A DNA stretch of 64,000 nucleotides, taken from positions 977,001 to 1,041,000 of the forward strand of contig CP054184.1 in NCBI GenBank assembly GCA_015709715.1. The letters run 5' to 3'. The stretch comes from Nitrospira sp. (GTDB lineage: Bacteria; Nitrospirota; Nitrospiria; Nitrospirales; Nitrospiraceae). Under the pieces are notes generated by a model. It had not been told where the DNA came from, searched no databases, and saw only the letters and a list, made by a program, of their open reading frames with translations. Both the position numbers and the translations under genes were made by a program. Shown here piece by piece: positions 5,946 through 21,900 of this stretch. How positions within the stretch are numbered: the first letter of the stretch is position 1; each line of letters opens with the position of its first letter.

Positions 5946-7115
5946 TTAACCTGTATATCCTTTCTCTCCATGCTCATAGAGATCCAAGCCCAGCACTTCC
6001 CCCTCCTGAGCCACGCGAGACGGCAACATCGACATGAGTAGCCGCAGCAATAGCCATGTCCCTGCTCCGGCTAACGCCCAGGCCGCGCCGACCGCTAGGG
6101 CTTGGACGGCAAACTGGTACGGGTAGCCGTAGAACAGACCGTCGCTTCCGCTCGGGTTCACGTCTGTCGACGCAAACAACCCCGTTGCGATCATCCCCCA
6201 GGTCCCTCCGACCCCATGCATGCCGAAGACGTCCAACGAGTCGTCATAGCCCAGGATGAGTTTGACGTAGTTCACGACCATGTAACACAACCCTCCGGCT
6301 CCGATCCCGATGACCAGCGCCGAGAGAGGTCCGACATAGCCGGCCGCCGGCGTGATCGCCACCAGCCCCGCGACAGCCCCGCTCACGGATCCTAGGGCGG
6401 TCGGTTTGTCCCGTTGAAGCCACTCCACCGCCGTCCAGGCAGCCGCTGCCGCGGCCGCCGACAGTTGAATGGTCACGAACGCCCCTGCGACGGTTGACAT
6501 TGAGGCCGAAACGGCGGCGCCGGTGAATCCAAACCAACCCACCCAGATGAGTCCCGCTCCGCAGAACGAGAAGGGCAAGTGGTTCGGCATCATCTCGATC
6601 CGGCCGTACCCCCGGCGCGGACCCAGCACAATCGCCATCACGAGGGCACTGCCCCCCGCGCTAACGTGAATGACGGCGCCCCCCGAAAAATCCAACACGC
6701 CCAGGCTTGCCAACCACCCGTTTCCCCAGAACCAATGGGACAGAGGGAGATACACGACCAACACCCAACAGGCCCCGAACACCAGAAAGAAGGAGAAGCG
6801 GACCCGTTCCACAATCGCTCCCGCAACCAAGGCCAATGCGATCGAGGCCATCACACCGCGATAGGCCGACCATAACAGGCTGCCATCGCTTGCCTGTCCG
6901 ATCGGATTCGCGTTTCCGAGGTGGAAGAGGGCTTGATCTCCAAGAAACACCCATTCGAGAGAGACGATGGCCAGCACAGCGAAAGGCAGCCCCATCGTGT
7001 TCATGACGTTCTTTTTCCTCACCATGCCGCCGTAGAACAACGCGATGCCCGGCACGATCAATAGCAGGAGCGTCGTGGACATCAGTAGCCACAGGACGTG
7101 GTCGGCCGATGTCAT
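5946..7115 (-). CDS. Divergent Amt-family ammonium transporter (Amt1)
   Basis: 389 residues with about eleven membrane helices. The conserved pore Asp (D142 in LDFSGG) and the twin pore histidines (H150 and H300) are kept. It lacks the cleavable leader seen in the other two Amt proteins here. By eye, the Phe of the QLMFA gate segment is Met, the Asn of GWFGFN is Thr, and the Ser of the GSAL segment is Ala. Recruitment and gating of ammonium may therefore differ, or the protein may act partly as a sensor. Its ATG overlaps the stop of the small winged-helix gene upstream. The Rieske gene begins directly after its stop, linking transport to the bc-type operon. Confidence 0.9.
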   Translation of the reverse strand: MTSADHVLWLLMSTTLLLLIVPGIALFYGGMVRKKNVMNTMGLPFAVLAIVSLEWVFLGDQALFHLGNANPIGQASDGSLLWSAYRGVMASIALALVAGAIVERVRFSFFLVFGACWVLVVYLPLSHWFWGNGWLASLGVLDFSGGAVIHVSAGGSALVMAIVLGPRRGYGRIEMMPNHLPFSFCGAGLIWVGWFGFTGAAVSASMSTVAGAFVTIQLSAAAAAAAWTAVEWLQRDKPTALGSVSGAVAGLVAITPAAGYVGPLSALVIGIGAGGLCYMVVNYVKLILGYDDSLDVFGMHGVGGTWGMIATGLFASTDVNPSGSDGLFYGYPYQFAVQALAVGAAWALAGAGTWLLLRLLMSMLPSRVAQEGEVLGLDLYEHGEKGYTG

Positions 7116-7356: not shown

Positions 7357-8715
7357 TTATGAATAGGCTCGCTCGTTATGTTGACTGATATCCAATCCCA
7401 TCTGCTCTTCCTCGGGAGTCACACGTAATCCGACCGATTTATCCACGAGGGCGAGAATGGCCCAGGTTCCTATCGCGGAAAACAATGCAACCACGACGAC
7501 CGTCAACACCTGTGCCTCGAAAAACCAGACATTTCCCCGCAGCAGTCCGTCGACGCCATCGGAATTCACCGCCGTAGATGCCAGCATACCGCTCAATAGA
7601 ATCCCCACCACACCGGCAACCCCGTGAATGCCGACCACATCCAGCGAATCGTCGTACCCAAGACGCCCCTTGTTCATGATGGCCATGTACGACAGCCCGC
7701 CCGCAATAAGTCCCATCACGCAGGCGGACAACGGACCGACATACCCCGCTCCCGGCGTCACCATGGCCAAACCGGCGACCGCCCCGCTGGCGATCCCCAG
7801 GACTGTCGGCTTGCCGCGATGCCACCATTCAACCGTCATCCAACTGAGCGCCCCGGTCACGGCGGCCACGTGCGTGGCCACGAACGCGATGATGGCTGTC
7901 TGATTCGCTCCAAGAGCACTGCCCGCGTTGAATCCGAACCACCCGAACCAGAGTAATCCCGTTCCAAGCAACACCATCGGCAGATTGTGCGGCGCCATAT
8001 AATCCGTTCCATATCCGTGCCGGGCCCCGAGCACGAAGGCGCACACAAGGGCGCTCATGCCCGAGCTCAGGTGCACCACCGCTCCGCCCGCAAAGTCCAA
8101 GGCCCCCAGACCGGCCAACCACCCTCCCCCCCAAAGCCAATGGGCGACGGGACAGTAGACGACGAGAGACCAGAGAGCCGAGAACATCAGCACCGCGCTG
8201 AACTTCATCCGCTCGGCGAAGGCGCCGGTGATCAACGCGGGTGTGATTGCCGCGAACATCAGCTGGAACACCATAAAAGCCTGATGAGGGATCGTCGGAC
8301 CGTAGGTCGGATGGGGCATCAAACCCACTCCGCTCAAGCCCATCCAGTCCACACTGCCGATAAGTCCCTTGATGTCGGGACCGAATGCCAGACTGTAACC
8401 GACGAGCACCCAGAGCAAACTGACCACGCAGAGAATCGCGAAGCTCTGCATGGCAGTGCCCAGGACATTCTTGCTGCGCACCAACCCGCCGTAGAACAGG
8501 GCCAAGCCGGGCACGGTCATCGCCAAGACCAATACCGAAGAAATCAGCACCCATGCCGTATCCGGCCCGCTGACCGACAGCGACTGGCCCACCGATGATT
8601 CCGCATGAGCCCAGGCCGGCAGGATCACGCCTGTCGCCAGGGCCGATGCGGCCAGCCTCCGTCCTGCTCCGAAAGGGTTCTTCTTGTGCCGGTCCGTCAT
8701 AAGAACAGTGGGCAT
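7357..8715 (-). CDS. amt: Ammonium transporter Amt2 with signal peptide
   Basis: 452 residues: an N-terminal leader (about 1-38, ending near AWAHA) followed by the eleven-helix Amt fold. Typical segments are present: FYGGLVRSKNV, the QLMFAAIT gate segment, LDFAGGAVVHL with pore Asp and His, GWFGFNAGSAL and GIHGVAG with the second pore His. It imports ammonium (as NH3 plus H+) across the inner membrane. I chose the ATG at 8715, preceded by GGAGG; the frame runs open to 8787 without a better start. The leader RNA at 8735-8822 holds a two-hairpin ANTAR-type element and terminator, so expression is probably controlled by antitermination. Confidence 0.92.
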   Translation of the reverse strand: MPTVLMTDRHKKNPFGAGRRLAASALATGVILPAWAHAESSVGQSLSVSGPDTAWVLISSVLVLAMTVPGLALFYGGLVRSKNVLGTAMQSFAILCVVSLLWVLVGYSLAFGPDIKGLIGSVDWMGLSGVGLMPHPTYGPTIPHQAFMVFQLMFAAITPALITGAFAERMKFSAVLMFSALWSLVVYCPVAHWLWGGGWLAGLGALDFAGGAVVHLSSGMSALVCAFVLGARHGYGTDYMAPHNLPMVLLGTGLLWFGWFGFNAGSALGANQTAIIAFVATHVAAVTGALSWMTVEWWHRGKPTVLGIASGAVAGLAMVTPGAGYVGPLSACVMGLIAGGLSYMAIMNKGRLGYDDSLDVVGIHGVAGVVGILLSGMLASTAVNSDGVDGLLRGNVWFFEAQVLTVVVVALFSAIGTWAILALVDKSVGLRVTPEEEQMGLDISQHNERAYS

Positions 8716-8734
8716 CTCATCCTCCACAAACACA

Positions 8735-8776
8735 AATGGCGTCCGCGATTCCCTATGAAACGCGCCGGACGCCATT
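8735..8776 (-). terminator. Conditional intrinsic terminator before amt2
   Basis: On the transcript an 11-base arm, AAUGGCGUCCG, is perfectly complementary to CGGACGCCAUU, with a 20-base loop between. The sequence UUUGUGUUUGU follows. The left arm is the loop and right arm of the second ANTAR-type hairpin (8766-8781), so the two structures exclude each other. Confidence 0.7.
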
Positions 8777-8822
8777 GTCCGATTCACAGGTATGGGAGCA
8801 ATCGACCTGGACGCCGTTGTCC
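8766..8822 (-). promoter_or_regulatory. Two-hairpin ANTAR-type RNA element in the amt2 leader
   Basis: Hairpin 1 (8809-8822) is GGAC-AACGGC-GUCC, extendable by ACC/GGU after one mismatch. Hairpin 2 (8766-8781) is CGGAC-AAUGGC-GUCCG. Both loops have six bases with A at position 1 and G at position 4, the signature of ANTAR protein targets. The linker is 27 bases, the same as in the element after glnA. Binding should stabilise hairpin 2 and prevent the overlapping terminator, allowing amt2 transcription. No promoter is visible between cynS and this element, so it probably acts on read-through from cynS. Confidence 0.75.
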
Positions 8823-8845: not shown

Positions 8846-9286
8846 TCAGAATGTCTTGTACTCCAGCCACTTGCCGTTCAGCGTGATCTTGCAGCGGGTC
8901 TCGCCCTGGCTGCCGGTTACTTTCTCCATGTCGATGGTGAAGTCGATCGCGCTCATGATGCCGTCGCCGAACAGTTCATTGGCCATCTCCCGCAGTGCGT
9001 CGCCGTACACGCCGATCACCTCCAGCAGCCGATACTTGAAGGGATCGACGGTAATCGGAAAGTCCGCGCGCACGGGAAAGCGACTCAACGCAGCGATCTG
9101 CTCCTTGTCCAAATCCAGCAGGCTTCCGACCTTCAACGCCTCGTCGGGAGAGAGGCGATGGTTGCCGTTCAACGCCGCCGCCACAAAGGTCGGGCTCTTC
9201 CCGACCGACTCGGCGACCTGCGCGATGGTGATTTTCCTGTTCGTCCGTTGCGCCTTGATTGCCTCGCACATTGCGTCCTTTTCCAT
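8846..9286 (-). CDS. cynS: Cyanase (cyanate hydratase)
   Basis: 146 residues, about ten shorter than E. coli CynS but complete. It has an N-terminal helix-turn-helix-like dimerisation part (about 1-70) and the C-terminal catalytic domain. The three catalytic residues are identifiable as R86 and E89 (in KYRLLEVIGVYG) and S112 (in GIMSAIDF), offset by ten from E. coli Arg96/Glu99/Ser122. It converts cyanate plus bicarbonate to ammonia and CO2, giving nitrogen for assimilation; in nitrite oxidisers the ammonia may also feed ammonia-oxidising partners. AGGAGG precedes the ATG. Its leader holds a terminator overlapping an ANTAR-type hairpin. Confidence 0.95.
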   Translation of the reverse strand: MEKDAMCEAIKAQRTNRKITIAQVAESVGKSPTFVAAALNGNHRLSPDEALKVGSLLDLDKEQIAALSRFPVRADFPITVDPFKYRLLEVIGVYGDALREMANELFGDGIMSAIDFTIDMEKVTGSQGETRCKITLNGKWLEYKTF

Positions 9287-9319: not shown

Positions 9320-9358
9320 AAAAAAAACGTCCTCATCCCGATGACGGGAAGAGGACGT
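9320..9358 (-). terminator. Conditional intrinsic terminator in the cynS leader
   Basis: The transcript forms a 14-bp stem (ACGUCCUCUUCCCG against CGGGAUGAGGACGU, one U-U mismatch) with a UCAU loop, followed by eight U. It ends about 30 bases before the cynS start. The left arm includes the GUCC arm of the ANTAR-type hairpin at 9352-9368, making the structures mutually exclusive. Confidence 0.85.
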
Positions 9359-9393
9359 CGATGTCCCTGGTTACAAGGCTCCCAGTGCCTTGT
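9352..9393 (-). promoter_or_regulatory. ANTAR-type two-hairpin element, cynS proximal
   Basis: Hairpin 2 (core 9353-9366) is GGAC-AUCGAC-GUCC with A1 and G4 in a six-base loop. Hairpin 1 (9373-9393) has a seven-base-pair stem, ACAAGGC/GCCUUGU, with the loop ACUGGGA. That loop has A1 and G4 but seven bases, so it is not a textbook match. The linker between hairpins is only about five bases. Hairpin 2 shares its right arm with the strong terminator at 9320-9358. This is the second such element between glnA and cynS. Confidence 0.6.
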
Positions 9394-9431
9394 CTGATGT
9401 CGGTGCCGACGACCACGTCGGCTGCAAATAA

Positions 9432-9471
9432 AAAGGCGTCCGCCACTCCCGAAAGAATGACGGACGCCTTT
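9432..9471 (-). terminator. Intrinsic terminator downstream of glnA
   Basis: A 17-bp stem on the transcript (arms 9455-9471 and 9432-9448, two G-U pairs) with a short UUUCGG loop is followed by UUUUUAUUU. It would end the glnA message. Its left arm begins inside the loop of the ANTAR-type hairpin at 9460-9477, so it may be conditional and gate read-through into cynS. Confidence 0.88.
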
Positions 9472-9520
9472 GTCCGTGTACCCGTTGTGGTGCGGAGTTC
9501 AGATCAGGCGCCGTTGCCTG
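9460..9520 (-). promoter_or_regulatory. ANTAR-type two-hairpin element between glnA and cynS
   Basis: Hairpin 1 (9505-9520) is CAGGC-AACGGC-GCCUG. Hairpin 2 (9460-9477) is ACGGAC-AAAGGC-GUCCGU. Both have six-base loops with A1 and G4. The linker is 27 bases, matching the amt2 element. The loop and right arm of hairpin 2 form the left arm of the terminator at 9432-9471. The arrangement fits control of glnA to cynS read-through by an ANTAR protein. The rest of 9287-9594 holds the cynS-proximal element and a short GCCGACG/CGUCGGC hairpin near 9403-9423; no coding sequence is seen. Confidence 0.75.
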
Positions 9521-9594: not shown

Positions 9595-11004
9595 CTACAC
9601 GTCGTAATACAGAAAGAACTCGTACGGATGCGGCCGCAGACGCATCGTATCGACTTCCTTGGCGCGCTTATACCCGATCCAGGCCTCGATCAAATCCTCA
9701 CTGAACACCCCGCCCTTGAGCAGGAATTGATAATCCTTCTCCAAGTGGCTGAGGGCCTCGTCCAAGCTGCCCGGCATGGTCCGAATCTTGGCCGCTTCCT
9801 TGGCCTCGAGATCGTAGAGGTCCTTCTCTGCTGGCTCGCCCGGATTAATCTTGTTTTCGATGCCGTCCAAACCCGCCATGAGCATGGCGGAGAAGGCCAA
9901 GTAGGGATTGGCCGCAGGGTCCGGGAATCGGACTTCGATGCGCTTCGCCTTGGGGCTCGGTGAGTACATCGGAATGCGGATGCCCGCCGACCGGTTACGG
10001 CTGGAATAGGCCAGCAACACCGGCGCTTCGAAGCCCGGCGTCAACCGCTTGTATGAATTGGTCGAGGGGTTGGTAAAGGCTGCCAACGCCGGAGCATGTT
10101 TCAAGATGCCGCCGATGTAATGCAGGCAGAGCTGCGACACGCCGGCGTATTCCTTCCCCGCGAACAGCGGCTTGCCGTCCTTCCAGATGCTCTGGTGGGT
10201 ATGCATGCCGGACCCGTTGTCGCCGAAGATCGGCTTCGGCATGAAGGTCACGGTCTTGCCATGGCGCCGTGCCACGTTCTTGACGATGTACTTGAACATC
10301 ATCATCTTGTCCGCCGTGCGCACGAGGCTGTCGAACCGAATGTCGATTTCCGCCTGGCCTGCCGTCGCCACTTCATGGTGATGCTTTTCAGTGGCGATGC
10401 CCGCCTTTTCCATTTCGAGGACCATCTCGGTCCGGATGTCCTGCTGCGTGTCGGTCGGTGCCACCGGGAAGTAGCCTTCCTTGTGACGGATCTTGCCGCC
10501 CAGGTTGACGCCCTCTTGCCCCATGTTCCACACGCCCTCGTCGGAATCGATGTAGTAGTAGGCACTGTGGTTCGTCTGATCATAACGGGCATGGTCGAAG
10601 ATGAAGAATTCCGCTTCCGGCCCCCAATAGGAGGTATCGCCAATTTTCGTGCTCTGCAGATACTTCTCTGCTTTCTGCGCGATATACCGCGGATCGCGGT
10701 CGTACATCTCACGGGTGATCGGGTCGACGACGTTGCCGATGAGGCTCAGCGTCGGTACGGAACAAAAGGGATCCATACAGGCGGTGGCGGGGTCCGGAAT
10801 CAGCAGCATGTCGCTGTTGTTGATCGCCCTCCAGCCGCGGATCGACGAGCCGTCGAGGCCGGAGCCGTCCTTGAACAACCCTTCCGTCAGTTCACTGACG
10901 GGAACGGTGAAATGCTGCCAGGTCCCGATCAGGTCGACAAACTTCAAATCCACGACCTGGACCTTATTCTTCTTGGCCATCTCTAAGACTTCGCGAACGT
11001 TCAT
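9595..11004 (-). CDS. glnA: Glutamine synthetase type I
   Basis: 469 residues, the usual GSI-beta length. It makes glutamine from glutamate, ammonium and ATP in a cytoplasmic dodecamer. Visible signatures include DGSSIRGW near the N-terminus, [10 protein letters not shown], the [12 protein letters not shown] region of the active site, [10 protein letters not shown] and the adenylylation-loop Tyr in [10 protein letters not shown]. That Tyr implies control by adenylylation, which glnB and glnD here could feed. The ATG at 11004 has GGAGGAGGGGG upstream. It is the last gene of a glnB-glnD-glnA run and is followed by a terminator overlapped by an ANTAR-type hairpin. Confidence 0.97.
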
Positions 11005-11054: not shown

Positions 11055-13739
11055 CTATGCTGCATCCACAGTGAGAAACGCTTCGATCTTGCCGAGAATC
11101 CCCGCGCGCACCGCTTCCAGACGAACCGGATCGTCGATCTTCGTGCCGCCCTCCGCAGTCACATAAAACACGTCTGCCACCTGGTCCAATCTGGTGGAAA
11201 TACGCGAGGCGTGAACCGACAACCCCAGCTGGAAGATAGCGTTGGTGATGACGAAGAGCAACCCCTGCCGGTCCTCCGCGAATACATCCAAGATGGTGAA
11301 GCGGTCGGACGTTTCATTGTCGATCCGCACCTCCGCAGGCTGCCGATGGACCGGGAGTGATCGGCCCATATTGAGCCTGGATCCGCGTCGCATCACCGAC
11401 TCGATCGACTGGCGCCCCGTCAAGACCTCCGTAATCGTGTCGGCAATCGACTCTCGCCGTTCGGCGGGCGGAGCCCCCTGATAATCCGGATCGGTCACCT
11501 GGAAGGTATCGACCGCCACGCCATCCTGTCGCGTCACGATCTGCGCGTCGAGAATCTGCAACCCGCTCGCCGCCATGACCCCGGCGATCTTGGAGAACAG
11601 CCCGGGAATTAGGTCGTCATGCGCCACCACGGCGTATTCGCACGTACCCAGGTCGGCATGAAATTCCGTGTCAATCACCACCCCCCCCGGCTGGAGACGA
11701 CGAATCGCGGTCAGATGGGCGGCGATGCGCCGCGGCGCGGTGCCAGAGAGGTAGCGTGGAGGAAACTGTTCCAACTCCCCACGAATCCACCTGTCGTCCT
11801 CCGGCAAGTCCGTCACCGCTTCCCGTTGGTGCATCACCTCGGTAGCAACCCTGGCCAGGCGTTCCGGCCCATCGGCCCTGTCTCGTTCGCCGGACACCTC
11901 CTGCATGGCGCGGCCGTACAGCTCCACGAGCAACGATTCCTTCCACTTGGTCAACACATCCGGGCCAACGGCGGCAATGTCGGCAGCGGTCAAGGCCAAG
12001 AGCTTGCGCAAGACTTCCGGCGTACCCACCTCACGGACAAACGGCCGCAACACCTTCTCGTCGTACGGGTCGCGCCGAAAGGCCGTATGGGCCATGAGCA
12101 GATGCCGATGTACGAGAAACATCAACGTCGCGCGCTCGCGCTCATCGAAACCGAGGCGCGCCGCCGTCTCTTCCGCCAGTCGCTTGCCGACTTCGCTATG
12201 GTCTTCCTCATGTCCCTTTCCCAAATCATGCAATAGCACGGCGAGATGGAGGAGGTCCTTTCGCTTGATCTCCCGATAGACTTCGCCCAGCGCGCCCTGA
12301 TGCTCCGCTAATGCCTCGGCCTTGCCGACAGCCAGCAGGCTATGCTCATCGACCGTGTACTTGTGGTACTGGTTGAACTGCATGAGGCCCCGTACGCGTG
12401 AGAACGCGGGCACCAACTTTTCCAACAGGTGGGCGCGATGCATCGCCTCCAAGGTCCGCGCCGTGCCCGGTCCCGCCAGGATCGACATGAACGTGCGGCC
12501 GACTTCCGGCGTATGGAATCGTTCGGGCGACAGCGTTTCCGCATGGCGATGGATGTCTTCCAGCAACGAGGGATCGATGTTCAAATTGCGCGACCGAGCC
12601 AGGTCGAACAAAGTCACCAAGGCTGCCGGTTGGGCCAACACCTGCGCACGCGATTCCTTCGGCACGGTCAAGGCTTCATCCTCGACGAGAAAGTGCCGAT
12701 CAATCTTCGTCGCCGGCCTCCACCGGCTCAAACGCTGCCACACAGAACGACGGCGACAACGATCGACGAACCGCATCGACGCGACGTGCAGCCCCATCGT
12801 ATGCCGATAGTATTGCTGCATGAACTGCTCGACGGCGAGCAGATGGGGCCGATCGGTGAAGCCCCAATGCTGCGCTAACCACACCTGATCGTCGAACGTC
12901 AGAATCTCCTGCGCCATTCCCGCCCGAACATGGAGGCAGGCGCGCACGCGCAAGAGAAACTCCCTCGCGTCCTTGATCGTGTGATAGTCCACCGGAGACA
13001 GGATGCCACGGTCGGAGAGTTCGCGAATCGTCGGTGCGTGATAACGTGCAGCCCCGATCCATTGGAGGAGATGCAGATCGCGCAGTCCTCCCTTGCTTTT
13101 TTTGACGTTGGGCTCCAACAGATACACGGTCTCGCCGAACTTCTGATACTCCCGCTGCCGTTCCGTAACTTTCTGCTCCAAATAGGCGTCGAACCCGGTG
13201 GAGACGACCTTGTGAGCGTAGCGGGCATGGAACTGCTGGAACAGCTCGGCGCTCCCGGCGAGGAACCGCGCCTCCATCATGGAGGTACGCACGGTCAGAT
13301 CGGCCAACCCCAATTCCACGCAATCCTGAATCGTCCGTACGCTGTGCCCGACTTGAAATCCGCTGTCCCACAGGGGATGGAGCACCTGCTTCACCAGGTC
13401 GGGCATCGCCTTGGCCGCGTCCGGATGGAACAGGAACATGAGATCGATGTCCGAATGGGGCGCCAATTCCCGGCGCCCATAGCCCCCCAGCGCGACCAGG
13501 CAACAATGGTGAAACCCGACCGTCGTGAGGCCTTCACCGCCGGCTCGCGCCGCGGTGCGATACCGTCCGATGATCAACCCGTCGACAAGGTCGGTGGTGG
13601 CGTTCACCACTTCATCGCCGGAGGCTCCAGCCAACAAGCGCTGCTGAATCGCCTGCCGCTGTTCGGCAAGAAGGTCGGCCGGCAGCAACGCTCCCGCTTC
13701 ATGCAACAAGGGCGACCCCGCATCCAACGCGTGCGACAT
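11055..13739 (-). CDS. glnD: Bifunctional uridylyltransferase/uridylyl-removing enzyme of PII
   Basis: 894 residues in the expected order. The nucleotidyltransferase domain has [20 protein letters not shown] (about 90-110). The HD hydrolase domain has [13 protein letters not shown] (mid-protein). Two ACT domains lie at the C-terminus (about 700-780 and 815-890). The enzyme uridylylates PII when glutamine is low and removes UMP when it is high. Start and stop nearly abut glnB (two bases between), so glnB and glnD are co-transcribed and probably translationally coupled. Confidence 0.96.
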
Positions 13740-13741
13740 GG

Positions 13742-14089
<348 letters not shown>

Positions 14090-14125: not shown

Positions 14126-15454
14126 TCACGAATAGGCCCGTTCGTTATGCTGACTCAAATCGAGGCCGGTGGCTTCTTCCTCCGAGGACACTCGGAGCCC
14201 CGTCAGAGAATCGACCAGTTTGAGGATGGCGAAGGTGCCGATGACCGTGAAGGCCGCCGTAACCAACGCGACAAGGAGTTGGACGCCCAGGAAACCGGGA
14301 TTCCCGAACAACAACCCGTCGGCTCCGCTTGGGTTGACGGCCTTATCCGCAAAAAGCCCGGTGGCCACGATCCCGATCACCCCCCCGACCCCGTGGATCC
14401 CCACGACGTCAAGCGAGTCATCATAGCCGAATCGCCCCTTCCAAACAATCGCGCCATAACAGGCCAGGCCGGCGACCGCACCGATCAGAATGCCGAACAA
14501 GGGGCTGATGTAGCCGGCTGCCGCCGTCACCGTCGCCAGCCCTGCCACGGCGCCGCTCGCGACGCCCAACACGGTCGGCTTCCCACGGTGAGCCCACTCG
14601 GCTCCGCACCAAGCCATCGCCCCGGTGGCCGCGGCCACATGGGTGGCGATAATAGCCGACACCGCCACGCTATTGGCCCCCAACGCGCTTCCACCATTGA
14701 AACCGAACCAGCCGAACCAGAGGAACCCTGTCCCAAGCAGCGTCATCGGCAAATTGTGCGGTGCCATGTAGTCGGTACCGTATCCCCGCCGCTGCCCCAG
14801 CACGAGGGCACAGACCAGTGCCGCAGCTCCGGAGCTGATGTGAATCACCGCGCCCCCGGCAAAATCCAACGCACCCAGCTTAGCCAGCCAACCGCCGCCC
14901 CATATCCAATGGGCCAGCGGCACGTAGACCAGCAGGGACCACAGGGCCGCAAACAGCACCACTGAGGTGAAGCGCTTACGCTCCGCGAAGGCGCCGGTAA
15001 TCAAGGCGGGTGAGATGGCCGCGAACATCAATTGAAACAACATAAAGGCCTGGTGCGGAATAGTTGGGGCATAAACCGGATGCGGTTCGGCCCCGACGCC
15101 CCTGAGCCCGATCCAGTCCAACCCGCCGATCATACCGCCCTGATCGGGACCGAAGGCCAGACTGTACCCCACCAAGATCCAGAGGACACTCACGACGCTG
15201 AGAATGATCATGCTCTGCATGATCGTCCCCAGGACGTTCTTGCTCCTGACCAACCCCCCGTAAAACAGCGCCAAGCCCGGCACGAGCATCGCCAGCACGA
15301 ACGCCGAGGATATCAACACCCACGCCGTATCTCCCGTATCGACCTTGAGCGGTGCACTCTGTGCATAGGCCTGCGCCGCCCCGAAGGCCGAGCCCATCAA
15401 GAGTCCCACTGTCACGCCCGCGACCACCGTTCCCCGTTGCGCCGGTACGTTCAC
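14126..15454 (-). CDS. amt: Ammonium transporter Amt3 with signal peptide
   Basis: 442 residues: a cleavable leader (about 1-32) and an eleven-helix Amt core very like Amt2 (FYGGLVRSKNVLGT, QLMFAAISPALI, LDFAGGAVIHI, GWFGFNGGSALGA, GIHGVGG). Pore His and Asp residues and the Phe gate are kept, so it should be a conventional ammonium channel under PII control. The start is GTG at 15454, with AAGGAGG just upstream. An 11-bp hairpin lies just before that site and its left arm is also complementary to the ribosome-binding site. Confidence 0.94.
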   Translation of the reverse strand: MNVPAQRGTVVAGVTVGLLMGSAFGAAQAYAQSAPLKVDTGDTAWVLISSAFVLAMLVPGLALFYGGLVRSKNVLGTIMQSMIILSVVSVLWILVGYSLAFGPDQGGMIGGLDWIGLRGVGAEPHPVYAPTIPHQAFMLFQLMFAAISPALITGAFAERKRFTSVVLFAALWSLLVYVPLAHWIWGGGWLAKLGALDFAGGAVIHISSGAAALVCALVLGQRRGYGTDYMAPHNLPMTLLGTGFLWFGWFGFNGGSALGANSVAVSAIIATHVAAATGAMAWCGAEWAHRGKPTVLGVASGAVAGLATVTAAAGYISPLFGILIGAVAGLACYGAIVWKGRFGYDDSLDVVGIHGVGGVIGIVATGLFADKAVNPSGADGLLFGNPGFLGVQLLVALVTAAFTVIGTFAILKLVDSLTGLRVSSEEEATGLDLSQHNERAYS

Positions 15455-15532: not shown

Positions 15533-16411
15533 CTAGAACGTCTTCGTAAATTTCAACTTATAGAAATCTTGATTGTCTGTCAGGTCTTTTCCGGCCGTGA
15601 ACCGGAAGGCCATGCCGCCCGGCAGTTTCATCTCCACATAGGGACCGATCCAGCGGTAGTAGTCTTGAGCGGCACCGGGTGCGCTGCTGTCGCGAGTGGT
15701 CAGCAAATGTTCGTAATGCACGCCGCCGGACCACAGGCTGTTCAGCCTGACTCCACCGCTCACCCAGTAGTGCAGGAAGTCCCAGGTGCCCCGACCACCG
15801 GCTTGGCTGGCCCCCAAGCAGTTGGTATCGACCAGGCCCGAACAGCCGACCGCGCCGCCGCCTCCGCTGCCCCCCTCGCTCCGAATGGCTTTGTAGTAGC
15901 CTAGGTAGAACTCGCCCTCGAACCGGTTGTCGATATAATTCGCGATGATGTTGGGCACGAATCCTTCGAAGGCCGTCGTGCGCTCATTGACGCTGCCGCC
16001 GCCGTTCGGGAAGAAGCCGCCGCGCGAGGAAAGCAGGCTGCCATGCACGAAGCCGATCATCGGCGTTACGGACAATCGCTTCTCCAGAAAGGTGAGATTC
16101 AGCCCCATATCGGTTTCGAGCCATGGGGCATTGTCATGGACGCCCACGCCGTTGATCATCGTCCAATAGGTGAAATTGAACGCCAACGCAATGTCGTCGG
16201 TGAGCCCGTACGTCCCATAAATGGATGGATTGAACCCGAAGAAACTGTCGGCCTGCATCGCCATGGTGACGGATACGGGATGTTTGGTCGTATCCATCAG
16301 GTCGTCCGTCGTCCCGGCCCGCGATTCACCCACCGCGCCGCCCCATCCGCTTACCATCACCGCCAGCCCCACTACCCACACCCGTACCCGTTGCCCGACC
16401 ATCATATCCAT
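15533..16411 (-). CDS. Outer-membrane beta-barrel protein of unknown substrate
   Basis: 292 residues with an N-terminal signal peptide (about 1-33, ending near GESRAG). Alternating hydrophobic/polar strands rich in Tyr, Phe, Trp and Gly follow. The C-terminus ends FYKLKFTKTF with a terminal Phe, typical of barrel assembly. A Gly-rich loop with two cysteines (GCSGLVDTNC) lies near 190-200. I do not recognise a named family. The next gene is amt3, 78 bases downstream, so a role as a porin for nitrogen compounds is possible but unproven. The start is ATG at 16411 with GGAGG four bases upstream. The leader has paired ANTAR-type hairpins. Confidence 0.75.
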   Translation of the reverse strand: MDMMVGQRVRVWVVGLAVMVSGWGGAVGESRAGTTDDLMDTTKHPVSVTMAMQADSFFGFNPSIYGTYGLTDDIALAFNFTYWTMINGVGVHDNAPWLETDMGLNLTFLEKRLSVTPMIGFVHGSLLSSRGGFFPNGGGSVNERTTAFEGFVPNIIANYIDNRFEGEFYLGYYKAIRSEGGSGGGGAVGCSGLVDTNCLGASQAGGRGTWDFLHYWVSGGVRLNSLWSGGVHYEHLLTTRDSSAPGAAQDYYRWIGPYVEMKLPGGMAFRFTAGKDLTDNQDFYKLKFTKTF

Positions 16412-16486
16412 GGCGCCTCCAAGAGATTGCGTAAAGGTGACTCCGCTCGAGGCTTTCGTCCCGACGGATCTGCCTGCCCTGTCTCT

Positions 16487-16527
16487 CTGGCGCCATTGCC
16501 AGCCCTGATGACCGACGCCGTTGTCGG
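16487..16527 (-). promoter_or_regulatory. ANTAR-type two-hairpin element upstream of the outer-membrane barrel gene
   Basis: Hairpin 1 (16512-16527) is CCGAC-AACGGC-GUCGG and hairpin 2 (16487-16502) is CUGGC-AAUGGC-GCCAG. Both have five-base-pair stems and six-base loops with A1 and G4. The linker is nine bases. No terminator follows. Instead AUGGCGCC in hairpin 2 is perfectly complementary to GGCGCCAU, which covers the end of the ribosome-binding site and the first two bases of the start codon (16410-16417). This suggests a switch on translation rather than on transcription. Confidence 0.7.
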
Positions 16528-16542
16528 CCGTTGCCCATTCGA

Positions 16543-18315
16543 CTATCGATACCCATTCGTAATTGGCATACGCCGATCCTTCCCAAACGCCCGATAGGTA
16601 ATCTTGATACCCAACGGGGCTTGGCGTCGCTTGTATTCGCTCCGATCGACCATCGCGATCACTCGCGCGACCGTCGCTTGATCGAACCCCATCGCCACGA
16701 TGTCCTCCGGGCCACGATCTTCCTCCACGTAAGCCTTCAGAATGGGATCCAGCACTGCGTAAGGCGGGAGGCTGTCTTCATCCTTTTGATCCGGGCGCAA
16801 TTCCGCCGTGGGCGCCCGTTCCAGAATGCGTTTCGGAATCACCGGGATCGCTCCCTGCGCGTTCCGTCGGTGCGACAGCTCGTAGACCATGGTCTTCGGC
16901 ACATCCTTGATCACCGCAAACCCGCCGGCCATGTCGCCATACAGCGTCGCATACCCAACGCTCATCTCGCTCTTGTTGCCGGTCGTCAGGACCAAGTGGC
17001 CGAACTTGTTGGAATAGGCCATGAGAAGGTTGCCCCGGATGCGGGCCTGCAAATTCTCCTCCGTCGCGTCTGGCCGATGGCCCTTGAAGGACTTGGCTAA
17101 CGTGCGCAGATAACTCTTGAAGGTCGAGGTAATCGAGAGAGTGTCGACTTGGATATGGAGACGCCGGCCCAGGTCGGCCACATCCTCCCGACTGGCCCGC
17201 GAGGTATAGGGCGACGGCATAAACACGCCCAACACGTTGTCCGCCCCGAGAGCATCCACGGCGATGGCCGCCGTCAGCGCGGAATCCACTCCGCCGCTCA
17301 AACCGATGACGACTCGCTTGAACCCATTCTTGCGCACATAATCCTGCACGCCCAAGACCAGCGCACGGTAGGCTTCATCCACGCGGTCCAGGTGAGACTC
17401 CAAGGCCGGAACGATGATGGAACGCGATTTCCTGGCCGGCAGTCGCAACTCGATGCGATCGATCAACGATGCCACGCGAGGCGGCAGGCTCCGTTTGCGA
17501 CCGGCCGCTAAGCGAGCACGCCCCACGGCGGCGACATCCAAGTCCGCGATGAGCAGATCCTCCTGAAAGGCCTTCCCTCGGGCCAGGATGGCGCCACTGT
17601 GGTCCACAATCAAGCTTCCCCCGTCGAAGACCAACTCATCCTGTCCGCCGACCGTATTGGTATAGGTCACGATCACGCGATTGTCCCGCGCTCGCGTGGC
17701 CAACATCTGTTCCCGAATCACCCCCTTGCCCATATGAAAGGGCGAGGCATTGATGTTGATGATGACCTCGGCACCGGCCGCCGCCTGCAGCCTCGTCGGG
17801 CCCTCCGGAAACCAGATGTCTTCGCAGATGTTCACGCCGATCGTCGTGCCGTTCAGCACCAACAAGGGGAGTCGTTGCCCCGGACGAAAATAGCGACTTT
17901 CGTCGAACACGCCGTAATTGGGCAGGTGCCGCTTGCCGTAGCTCGCGGCGATCCGGCGCTCGCAGAGGACGGCGGCGGCATTGTACAAATCATGGCGCCC
18001 GGTGGTTTGCAGCGAGGTTGGATGCTCTCCACCCGAGGCCGTAACCGTTTCCCGGCCTACGTATCCGACGATCACCGCCACCCCTCTGGCTTCGGCGGCA
18101 ACAGCTTGCAAAGCCCGCGCGGTGTCATCGATAAAGCGCGGCTTGAAGAGCAGGTCTTCAGGAGGATAGCCGGTGATGGCGAGTTCAGGAAATGCCACGA
18201 GGTCGGCCTGCGCTTGGCGGGCTTGGCGAATCCAGGTCACGATGCGGCGAACATTCCCCGAGAGGTCTCCGACCGTCGGATTCATTTGAGCCATGGCAAT
18301 TCTACAAACGCGCAT
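16543..18315 (-). CDS. nadE: Glutamine-dependent NAD+ synthetase
   Basis: 590 residues, two domains. The N-terminal nitrilase-type glutaminase has the catalytic triad E44 (FPELAITGY), K128 (YGKRHLPNYG) and C164 (GVNICEDIWF). The C-terminal ATP-pyrophosphatase synthetase has the P-loop LSGGVDSALTAA (about 339-350). It amidates nicotinic acid adenine dinucleotide to NAD+ using glutamine nitrogen. The ATG at 18315 is chosen for the GGGAG upstream. A strong promoter and a 140-base leader with a two-hairpin ANTAR-type element and terminator precede it, tying NAD synthesis to the same control as cynS and amt2. Confidence 0.96.
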   Translation of the reverse strand: MRVCRIAMAQMNPTVGDLSGNVRRIVTWIRQARQAQADLVAFPELAITGYPPEDLLFKPRFIDDTARALQAVAAEARGVAVIVGYVGRETVTASGGEHPTSLQTTGRHDLYNAAAVLCERRIAASYGKRHLPNYGVFDESRYFRPGQRLPLLVLNGTTIGVNICEDIWFPEGPTRLQAAAGAEVIININASPFHMGKGVIREQMLATRARDNRVIVTYTNTVGGQDELVFDGGSLIVDHSGAILARGKAFQEDLLIADLDVAAVGRARLAAGRKRSLPPRVASLIDRIELRLPARKSRSIIVPALESHLDRVDEAYRALVLGVQDYVRKNGFKRVVIGLSGGVDSALTAAIAVDALGADNVLGVFMPSPYTSRASREDVADLGRRLHIQVDTLSITSTFKSYLRTLAKSFKGHRPDATEENLQARIRGNLLMAYSNKFGHLVLTTGNKSEMSVGYATLYGDMAGGFAVIKDVPKTMVYELSHRRNAQGAIPVIPKRILERAPTAELRPDQKDEDSLPPYAVLDPILKAYVEEDRGPEDIVAMGFDQATVARVIAMVDRSEYKRRQAPLGIKITYRAFGKDRRMPITNGYR

Positions 18316-18365
18316 CGAGACTCCCACCACTGCGTATACCAACCATCCTACTGGTCCTAGCGAGC

Positions 18366-18409
18366 AAAAAAAAACGCCCTCAGACCCATCACCTTGGATC
18401 GGAGGACGT
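18366..18409 (-). terminator. Conditional intrinsic terminator in the nadE leader
   Basis: A 14-position stem on the transcript (ACGUCCUCCGAUCC with GGGUCUGAGGGCGU, one mismatch, two G-U pairs) with an eight-base loop is followed by nine U. The left arm includes the GUCC arm of the ANTAR-type hairpin at 18404-18417. It sits 50 bases before the nadE start, so it would block nadE unless antiterminated. Confidence 0.85.
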
Positions 18410-18452
18410 CGTTGTCCGTTCGATGACTAGTCGGAGACTCCATTGTCCCCGA
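18404..18452 (-). promoter_or_regulatory. ANTAR-type two-hairpin element in the nadE leader
   Basis: Hairpin 1 (18431-18452) is an eight-base-pair stem, UCGGGGAC/GUCUCCGA, with loop AAUGGA. Hairpin 2 (18404-18417) is GGAC-AACGAC-GUCC. Both six-base loops have A1 and G4. The linker is 13 bases. The right arm of hairpin 2 is the left arm of the following terminator. The order promoter, hairpin 1, hairpin 2/terminator, gene is the textbook layout for ANTAR-mediated antitermination. Confidence 0.82.
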
Positions 18453-19471: not shown

Positions 19472-20737
19472 TCAGGAACCCGTTCGCTTTTTATCCGCTC
19501 GCTCTTCGATTTCTCCTGCCAAGAGAATGGCCTCGGCAATTTCCCGCATCGATTTACGAAGGTCCATACTCTGCCGCTGAATCAATTTGAATGCCTCGTC
19601 TTCCGAGAGCCGCTTGGACCGCATCAGATAACCCTTAGCGCGGTCCAGGAGTTTGCGCACCTGCAGTGCCTCCTGCATCTCAAACGACTTCTCCAGCAGC
19701 GTCGTGTGTTCAATGGAGATGGCGGCTTGATTGGCAATCGCCTGCATCAATTTCACATCCTCCGTGGTGAACGTGCGAGGTTTGGAGGTGTAGGTATTGA
19801 TGACTCCGATCGCCTTTTCACGGACCAGCATCGGGACGCACAACAAGGAACAGAGCCCTTCTTTGGCCGCCATGTCAGGATAGACATACGTACTTTCCGT
19901 GGTGACATCCGGCACGATGATTGGCCGACGCTCCTGGACTGCGCGTCCGCTGATGCTCTGACCGATCTTCACATTGGGCTTACGTCGATATTGTTCACTC
20001 AGACTTTGTGTCGCTGCAATGCGCAGTTCGCCTGTCGCCTGATCGAGGAGAATGATGGAGCAGATTTTGGACCCCATCATTTGGGCGGTCATCGTCACGA
20101 TCAGCTGCAACACGTCTTCGATCAGCCGGTTGGAAGAAACCGTTTCCGATACCTGTGACAAGGTCTCGAGTTGAAGCGCTTTGCGAGTCATTTGATCGTA
20201 CAGCCGGGCGTTCTCGATGGCCCCTCCGACCTGGGTCGCAATCGTGGACAACAACGCCAATTCGTCGGGACGGTATCGTCGCGGTCGTTTGTGCTGAGCA
20301 TTGATGACTCCGACGACTTCCTGCTTGGTCGTGATGGGAACGGAGACGAACGCCTGATACCGGTCTTCCGGCAGGTTATGGAAAAACTTGAATCGGGGGT
20401 CGTCGCTGGCGCTATTCGGGATAACGACTCGCGTTCTTTCGCGGGCTACCCAGCCGGTAATTCCTTCTCCCCATCCGATCGTAATGCGGCCGATCAACTT
20501 GGGATGGGGATTCTTTGAAGCTCGTAGAATGAGTTCATCGCGGTTGTCAGATAGTAAGTAGAGCAGACAGGCATCAGCCTTAGTCACCTCCACTACCATA
20601 TCGACGATGTGACGCAGGACGGCTTCCAGATCGAGCGTATTGCTGATCGACTCGCTGATGCGATGCAAGACATCGACTTCTCGCGTTTTCTCGCGAAGGG
20701 CTTGCTCCAATTGAGATACCGTCCGTTTCGCCGTCAT
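19472..20737 (-). CDS. GAF-GAF-ANTAR antitermination regulator
   Basis: 421 residues. A short coiled N-terminus (1-25) precedes two GAF sensor domains (about 28-180 and 195-350). A C-terminal ANTAR RNA-binding domain follows (about 352-408), recognisable by VRKLLDRAKGYLMRSKR, LSEDEAFKLIQRQSMDLR and SMREIAEAILLAG. ANTAR domains bind paired hairpins with A-N-N-G-N-N hexaloops and prevent termination. There is no receiver domain, so the GAF domains probably bind a small molecule or partner. The ATG at 20737 has AGGAG upstream, and aroB ends eight bases before, so the two share an operon. The leaders of nadE, cynS and amt2 carry matching RNA elements. Confidence 0.9.
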   Translation of the reverse strand: MTAKRTVSQLEQALREKTREVDVLHRISESISNTLDLEAVLRHIVDMVVEVTKADACLLYLLSDNRDELILRASKNPHPKLIGRITIGWGEGITGWVARERTRVVIPNSASDDPRFKFFHNLPEDRYQAFVSVPITTKQEVVGVINAQHKRPRRYRPDELALLSTIATQVGGAIENARLYDQMTRKALQLETLSQVSETVSSNRLIEDVLQLIVTMTAQMMGSKICSIILLDQATGELRIAATQSLSEQYRRKPNVKIGQSISGRAVQERRPIIVPDVTTESTYVYPDMAAKEGLCSLLCVPMLVREKAIGVINTYTSKPRTFTTEDVKLMQAIANQAAISIEHTTLLEKSFEMQEALQVRKLLDRAKGYLMRSKRLSEDEAFKLIQRQSMDLRKSMREIAEAILLAGEIEERADKKRTGS

Positions 20738-20745
20738 GAAGGCTC

Positions 20746-21900
20746 CTACCGGCCTGGCCCTTGAAGTTGATTCGCCAACTTTCTCCGCTGTGGCGCTCGC
20801 TTCCCGTCGAACCAGGCACGCACGCGCTGCTTCTCTAGCGGCACGACTTGTACCGTTCCGATTTGCGTCGGCACCACGCAATAGACCGTTCCGGACGAGA
20901 CCTTCTTATCTTGCCGCATGGCCGTCCATAATGCACCGAACGTCATCGGCGGCATCTGAACCGGCAACCCCGCCTTGGCGACGAGGGCCTGCAAGCGAGT
21001 GACTACTTCTTCGCTGCAGTAACCGAGATGCCTGGCCAAATCTGCCTCGCAGACCATTCCAATCGCCACCGCTTCCCCGTGGATCAGTCCACGATACCCG
21101 CCGATGGCTTCCAACGCATGCCCGATCGTATGTCCAAAGTTCAGGATCCTTCGTCGATCGGCTTCACGCTCGTCGGCTGCCACGACCTCTGCCTTAATTT
21201 CGCAGGAGCGTTTCACGATCCGCGTTATCGCCTGCTCGTCGAGTGCAAGAATCGCTTCCATGTTGTGTTCAAGATACCGAAAGAAAGGCTCATCGGCGAT
21301 CACTCCATACTTAATCACCTCGGCTAAGCCGGCAATCTTTTCCCGGATCGGCAAGGTCTCCAGCGTGACAGGATCAATCAGCACGGCACGAGGCTGGTTG
21401 AATGCACCGATCAAATTCTTGCCCTTGGCGTGATCCACTCCGGTCTTCCCTCCGACACTTGAATCGACTTGGGCCACCAGGCTGGTGGGCACCTGGACAA
21501 AGGGGATTCCGCGTTGGTAGATCGCCGCAGAAAATCCGGTTATATCTCCGATGACGCCGCCACCCAGCGCCAGTAATGTCGAAGCACGTTCGAACTTTTC
21601 AGCAACGAGCACATCCATGATCGTGGCAATCGTACGAAGCGTCTTCGTTCGCTCCCCTGGAGGCAAGACGATCGGAATAACGTGATACCCGGCTGCCTTC
21701 AATACCCGGCGAGCCAGTTGCAGGTAGTGCTTCGCGAGATTTCGATCGGTCACAATGCCGATCTTCCCGCTGCAGCCAACTCGTTGGAGTTCCGTCCCGA
21801 GGGCGCGAAGCAGATAACGCTGGATGATGATCGGATAACTCCGTTCGCCTAATTCGACAGGGATGGTTTCCTGCGGCACCTCACGCACACGTGTTCTCAT
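20746..21900 (-). CDS. aroB: 3-dehydroquinate synthase
   Basis: 384 residues. It converts DAHP to 3-dehydroquinate, the second shikimate step, using NAD+ and a metal. Signatures: GGGVIGDITGFSAAIYQRGIPF, PTSLVAQVDSSVGGKTGVDH, NLIGAF, the metal-binding LNFGHTIGHALE and the IHGEAV motif. The length fits the family. The ATG at 21900 has GGAGAG upstream; the longer frame to 21978 lacks support. It is followed directly by the ANTAR regulator gene. The promoter at 22149-22178 lies about 240 bases upstream of the start, so the leader is long. Confidence 0.95.
   Translation of the reverse strand: MRTRVREVPQETIPVELGERSYPIIIQRYLLRALGTELQRVGCSGKIGIVTDRNLAKHYLQLARRVLKAAGYHVIPIVLPPGERTKTLRTIATIMDVLVAEKFERASTLLALGGGVIGDITGFSAAIYQRGIPFVQVPTSLVAQVDSSVGGKTGVDHAKGKNLIGAFNQPRAVLIDPVTLETLPIREKIAGLAEVIKYGVIADEPFFRYLEHNMEAILALDEQAITRIVKRSCEIKAEVVAADEREADRRRILNFGHTIGHALEAIGGYRGLIHGEAVAIGMVCEADLARHLGYCSEEVVTRLQALVAKAGLPVQMPPMTFGALWTAMRQDKKVSSGTVYCVVPTQIGTVQVVPLEKQRVRAWFDGKRAPQRRKLANQLQGPGR

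Follow-up and report, generated by a model that had tools for sequence, protein, structure and literature searches.

ANTAR RNAs constitute a large class that is still mostly uncharted, and Nitrospira, in which the locus described here was found, are key nitrifiers. We know of no agreed mechanism for the ANTAR RNAs that lack a terminator. Ramesh et al. (2012) described ANTAR RNAs in front of nitrogen genes, those of ammonium transporters and P-II among them; mutations demonstrated that the A1 and G4 features of the hexaloops matter for EutV binding, and an effect on translation was proposed as a possibility for terminator-less ANTAR RNAs (PMC3369931). About 37% of the ANTAR RNAs predicted in actinobacteria overlap a ribosome-binding site (RBS) or start codon (PMC8164766), and translational repression by mycobacterial ANTAR RNAs is reported in earlier work cited in the same paper. 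In an engineered PAS-ANTAR-LOV circuit translation is switched on when a helix that hides the Shine-Dalgarno (SD) sequence is broken up (PMC11381354).

The locus lies in a 64,000-nt stretch (the window) of a complete Nitrospira genome of 4.16 Mb. On the minus strand the genes follow each other in the order GAF-GAF-ANTAR, nadE, the leader under study, DUF6733, amtB, PII (glnK), glnD, glnA, cynS, a second amtB and a third Amt; a gene on the opposite strand sits between the ANTAR gene and nadE. The product of the DUF6733 gene (the barrel gene) is predicted, with low confidence, to be an outer-membrane barrel, the pLDDT of its AlphaFold model being 55. This gene is linked to amtB across Nitrospira, and its product may be a porin that lets a small nitrogen compound pass. 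The sigma-54 promoter pattern gave 4 matches in the window, which is below the counts in shuffled sequence.

Table. Features of the nitrogen cluster and of its leaders, in window coordinates (loops of hairpins in square brackets).
Feature	Position	Strand	Remark
GAF-GAF-ANTAR protein	19472-20881	-	presumed regulator; PF03861 match
nadE leader, ANTAR hairpins over terminator	18366-18452	-	hairpins 18452-18431 and 18417-18404; nine U; usual antitermination form
nadE, glutamine-dependent NAD synthase	16543-18342	-	directly upstream of the barrel leader; stop 13 nt before hairpin 1
ANTAR hairpin 1, GGCCGAC[AACGGC]GUCGGUC	16510-16529	-	7 bp; loop A1/G4
ANTAR hairpin 2, CUGGC[AAUGGC]GCCAG	16487-16502	-	5 bp; near-invariant among relatives
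Blocking arm, AUGGCGCC + AGAGAGA	16482-16496	-	loop and 3' arm of hairpin 2 plus flank; start region is its partner in the proposed OFF state
Spacer between the pairing arms	16427-16481	-	predicted third hairpin in every lineage; 42% identity
UCUCUU, partner of GAGAGA	16421-16426	-	lengthens the blocking helix
Shine-Dalgarno GGAGG of the DUF6733 gene	16416-16420	-	4-nt spacer; conserved in 28/28 leaders
Anti-arm, GGCGCCAU	16410-16417	-	covers SD end, spacer and start codon; 8/8 pairs in 26/28 leaders
DUF6733 (PF20507) barrel, regulated gene	15533-16411	-	N-terminal helix and 12 predicted strands
amtB, ammonium transporter	14126-15454	-	next operon gene after DUF6733
PII protein (glnK/glnB)	13742-14080	-	
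glnD, PII uridylyltransferase	11055-13739	-	
glnA, glutamine synthetase	9595-11004	-	
cynS leader, ANTAR hairpins over terminator	9426-9520	-	hairpins 9520-9505 and 9477-9460; uninterrupted 18-pair terminator
cynS	8846-9286	-	
amtB2 leader, ANTAR hairpins over terminator-like stem	8728-8822	-	hairpins 8822-8809 and 8782-8765; weak U tract before SD
Second amtB (amtB2)	7357-8787	-	
Third Amt	5946-7115	-	

The barrel leader contains two hairpins with a linker of 7 nt between them, and both loops are 6 nt long with A1 and G4. No terminator was detected on the coding strand from hairpin 2 to the AUG (16487 to 16411), in agreement with the original prediction of two hairpins without a terminator, and an intrinsic terminator overlapping hairpin 2, the mark of the antiterminator subtype, is absent. 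Four features of an ANTAR target were present: tandem stem-loops, A1/G4 hexaloops, an ANTAR gene in the genome and a helix that excludes hairpin 2. No Rfam family reached its gathering score, and the relaxed threshold yielded nothing relevant, only two chance-level matches elsewhere.

The predicted complementarity between AUGGCGCC (16489-16496) of hairpin 2 and GGCGCCAU at the SD/start region proved to be exact, and the helix is longer than had been supposed. In the minimum-energy fold AUGGCGCC together with GAGAGA pairs with UCUCUU and GGCGCCAU, while the GGA of the SD is bulged. Since this blocking helix consumes the loop and the 3' arm of hairpin 2, the two structures are mutually exclusive. 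Later ATGs were ruled out as the start, as the first ATG with GGAGG and a 4-nt spacer is kept in 28 of the 28 Nitrospira leaders carrying the hairpin pair (the window's own included), which were extracted using this GGAGG-4nt-ATG pattern and whose raw sequences, read directly, agree. In the computed free ensembles of these leaders the probability of the blocking helix was 0.7 or higher in 25 of the 28 and that of hairpin 2 was near zero. Forcing both hairpins cost about 5 kcal/mol on average, a price that a bound protein could pay, and it reduced the energy needed to open the RBS, on average from 12.5 to 8.7 kcal/mol (from 17.8 to 12.3 kcal/mol for the leader in the window). The reduction was below 1 kcal/mol or reversed in seven leaders (L012, L015, L016, L019 and L026-L028). 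The claim that formation of hairpin 2 frees the start site is thereby supported in silico for most of the leaders.

We consider it likely, with good confidence, that the barrel leader is an ANTAR switch in which hairpin 2 competes with an RBS-hiding helix rather than with a terminator, and which would be ON when ANTAR is bound. Without ANTAR, AUGGCGCC and AGAGAGA would find their partner some 75 nt further downstream, in the last bases of the SD, the spacer and the start codon; the blocking helix would close over the third hairpin, and translation of DUF6733 would be OFF by default. Binding of the GAF-GAF-ANTAR protein to both hexaloops would lock hairpin 2, leaving the RBS free and translation ON; both the binding and the direction of the effect are what we infer from the sequence. 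During transcription hairpin 2 presumably forms first, and AGAGAGA could then serve as a toehold for invasion by the later-made UCUCUU-GGAGG-CGCC-AU, unless ANTAR holds hairpin 2. The signal is probably nitrogen status, perceived via the GAF domains. Since nadE and the barrel gene run in the same direction about 130 nt apart, readthrough from the antitermination-controlled nadE leader may meet a second, translational gate at the barrel gene.

The barrel gene belongs to an operon in which amtB is preceded by an SD of its own, about 79 nt past the barrel stop, therefore control of the downstream genes would need a polarity-like effect. This arrangement would also suit a mechanism in which the blocking helix acts mainly through transcription, Rho cutting the ribosome-free barrel message and ANTAR relieving the polarity on barrel-amtB-glnK. 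We regard this as unlikely to be the main route; blocking of the RBS would still be required as its first step.

The complementarity could also be an accident of the GGCGCC palindrome, as the original prediction itself cautioned; the hairpins would then have another target or be relics. The core is indeed self-complementary and the sequence of the arm is fixed by the hairpin, but the anti-start complementarity exceeds chance. Only 2 of the 253 SD+ATG sites in the window pair with AUGGCGCC at all eight positions, the barrel start among them. Among the 28 leaders, which are related to one another and are not independent tests, the pairing is 8/8 in 26, 7/8 in L019, which precedes a truncated gene, and 6/8 in L016, where the A1 of hairpin 2 was lost together with the anti-start pairing. 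A conserved alternative SD/AUG helix that is excluded by the sensor fold, as in RBS-blocking switches, is thus present in 26 of the 28. The SD-AUG spacer occurs as CGCC, CGUC, CGUU and UGCC, all of which pair with the arm via G-U, and once as AGAU, which loses the pairing. This haplotype changed at least 6 times on the barrel protein tree. Outside L016 the spacer differences are always C/U opposite G, the base opposite C being invariant, and in L022 the arm itself changed from C to U and still pairs. The complement is absent from the hairpin-less leaders of the same gene (L029, L030, L062). The accident is therefore very improbable, and the complementarity is kept in full in 26 of the 28 leaders that keep the hairpins, as the prediction required. 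The support comes from one-sided changes that preserve pairing through G-U; no two-sided covariation could be detected in the 8-bp anti-start helix, as would be expected if the ANTAR hairpin holds the sequence of the 5' arm constant.

The barrel gene was found in 37 of the 175 family genomes searched; the named relatives that carry it are Nitrospira, including Candidatus N. defluvii and N. moscoviensis. Across 13 distinct relatives the stem of hairpin 1 is 100% kept, two of its pairs having changed in both partners, and A1/G4 of the loops are kept in most relatives, the exceptions with G1 being hairpin 1 of L026/L027 and hairpin 2 of L016. The 48-61 nt between the pairing arms have 42% identity across nine lineages and always fold into a hairpin. 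In the flanking helix, arms from one lineage match each other better than arms exchanged between lineages do (about 5 of 1000 permutations were as good). This helix is weak or absent in L026-L028. Several arms, moreover, pair better with the partner of another lineage, so this coupling is taken as supporting evidence only. In genome G031 the barrel gene is split (L023/L066), its first part with the intact leader lying about 22 kb from the rest; the junction carries unread bases (N), and the split suggests an inserted element.

Long helices are often processing sites, and this one stands between two genes of one operon, so that it might chiefly be an RNase or mRNA-stability element modulated by ANTAR. 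We give little credence to this explanation, because in all lineages the pairing has the SD and the AUG at its centre, with an invariant SD-AUG spacing. Very improbable, too, is that ANTAR represses translation by occupying the RBS. Repression is the natural ANTAR translation control so far described (PMC8164766, citing earlier work), but hairpin 2 cannot form together with the RBS-blocking helix, and from its end to the AUG there are 65-78 nt in every leader, with neither RBS nor start inside or beside the hairpins, a distance beyond simple occlusion, on which ground occlusion from hairpin 2 was rejected.

Only one ANTAR gene was found in the genome by the PF03861 profile search (69.7 bits against a cut-off of 27.3). 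It lies 3 kb upstream of the barrel leader, and its GAF-GAF-ANTAR product is the presumed regulator. No ANTAR gene was found in genome G062, which has a hairpin-less barrel leader; since its assembly is 87% complete and the nadE element is retained, this absence was left out of the evidence. In L026 and L027 (genomes G120 and G119) the loops of hairpin 1 read GAAGUG and GAAGGG, and the ANTAR domains of these two genomes are among the low scorers of the family, a possible co-drift of the protein and the RNA.

The window was also scanned on both strands for two ANNGNN hairpins plus a helix that competes with hairpin 2 and either ends in a U tract or covers the SD/start. Four places were found, the leaders of nadE, the barrel gene, cynS and amtB2, all of which belong to the nitrogen cluster and lie on the minus strand, and none in 60 dinucleotide shuffles of the window. 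The pattern GGACAANGRCGTCC has 4 matches genome-wide, all in these same four leaders, and its reversed control has none. With the covariance model R1 only the barrel leader scored strongly in its own genome; the other three elements, whose linkers are longer, came from the structure scan and the pattern. A terminator overlaps hairpin 2 at nadE and cynS, and weakly at amtB2. Of 18 relatives examined, 10 share the nadE-leader arrangement, N. defluvii (L154) and N. moscoviensis (L159) among them. Another terminator, with eight U, precedes cynS (9320-9422, minus strand); it is overlapped by GGAC[AUCGAC]GUCC, and the near-consensus hairpin GCCGAC[GUGGUC]GUCGGC lies upstream of it, so that this region may hold a tandem ANTAR element whose loop 1 has G1.

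The covariance model also placed ANTAR hairpins in other genera of the family, before sigma-54 activators (L139, L146, L149, L150), NMT1_2 nitrate-transport-type solute-binding proteins (L141, L144), amtB (L142) and NirA-type reductases (L145). In most of these leaders the GGCGCCAG arm of hairpin 2 pairs into ...CUGGCGCC, followed by a U tract. In L142 (G165) the hairpins lie about 270 nt upstream of amtB and the competing stem has no clear U tract. In the NirA-type leaders L151, L153 and L145 the competing stem ends in CGCCAUUGU(G)UUU, a weak U tract shortly before the SD of the next ORF. These stems resemble that of the window's amtB2 leader, and the leaders are possibly intermediate between the terminator and RBS types. 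On nitrite alone N. moscoviensis strongly transcribes two of its three amt genes and cynS (PMC6606698), which is compatible with an active regulon and is not a test of one.

As the same hairpin 2 arm pairs with GGCGCCAU at the barrel start and with a terminator arm elsewhere, the simplest evolutionary reading would be that the 3' arm of a terminator was replaced by, or turned into, a ribosome-binding site. It seems reasonably probable to us that one GAF-ANTAR protein uses antitermination at some nitrogen genes and the un-blocking of an RBS at another, the start region having taken the place of the terminator 3' arm, and that this would be the first natural translational activation by an ANTAR RNA. 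The barrel leader would then offer a concrete mechanism for terminator-less ANTAR RNAs and a route from a transcription switch to a translation switch, with one protein reading both, and it points to a nitrogen-control circuit in Nitrospira.

The claim that control of initiation by ANTAR would be new was too strong, being preceded by mycobacterial repression (PMC8164766), the 2012 proposal (PMC3369931) and engineered activation (PMC11381354). What appears to be new, judged from sequence, is a natural, conserved and activating ANTAR arrangement with a distant RBS. A literature search for ANTAR and Nitrospira found nothing relevant; papers beyond its scope could alter this novelty.

The barrel leader resembles the EutV/eut, NasR/nasF and AmiR/amiE antiterminators (PMC3369931) in its paired A1/G4 hexaloops, in a helix that excludes hairpin 2 and in the nitrogen genes concerned. 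The nadE, cynS and amtB2 elements of the window fit this group fully (with a weak terminator at amtB2), but in the antiterminators the competing helix is the terminator, whereas that of the barrel leader covers the SD and AUG instead. Mutually exclusive helices that expose or hide the RBS are shared with the translational riboswitches having anti-SD helices; these are triggered by a metabolite, while the barrel leader, which matches no Rfam family, presumably responds to a protein. With the actinobacterial and mycobacterial ANTAR RNAs (PMC8164766) it has in common the probable control of translation of the downstream gene, but those RNAs have the RBS within or next to the hairpins and are repressed on binding, while in the barrel leader some 75 nt separate the RBS from the hairpins and activation would be expected. 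Its proposed action is shared by the engineered riboptoregulator NmPAL (PAS-ANTAR-LOV, PMC11381354), in which a protein-bound leader hairpin likewise breaks an SD-hiding helix and turns translation on; NmPAL is synthetic, light-driven and uses a different aptamer, whereas the barrel leader is natural and conserved.
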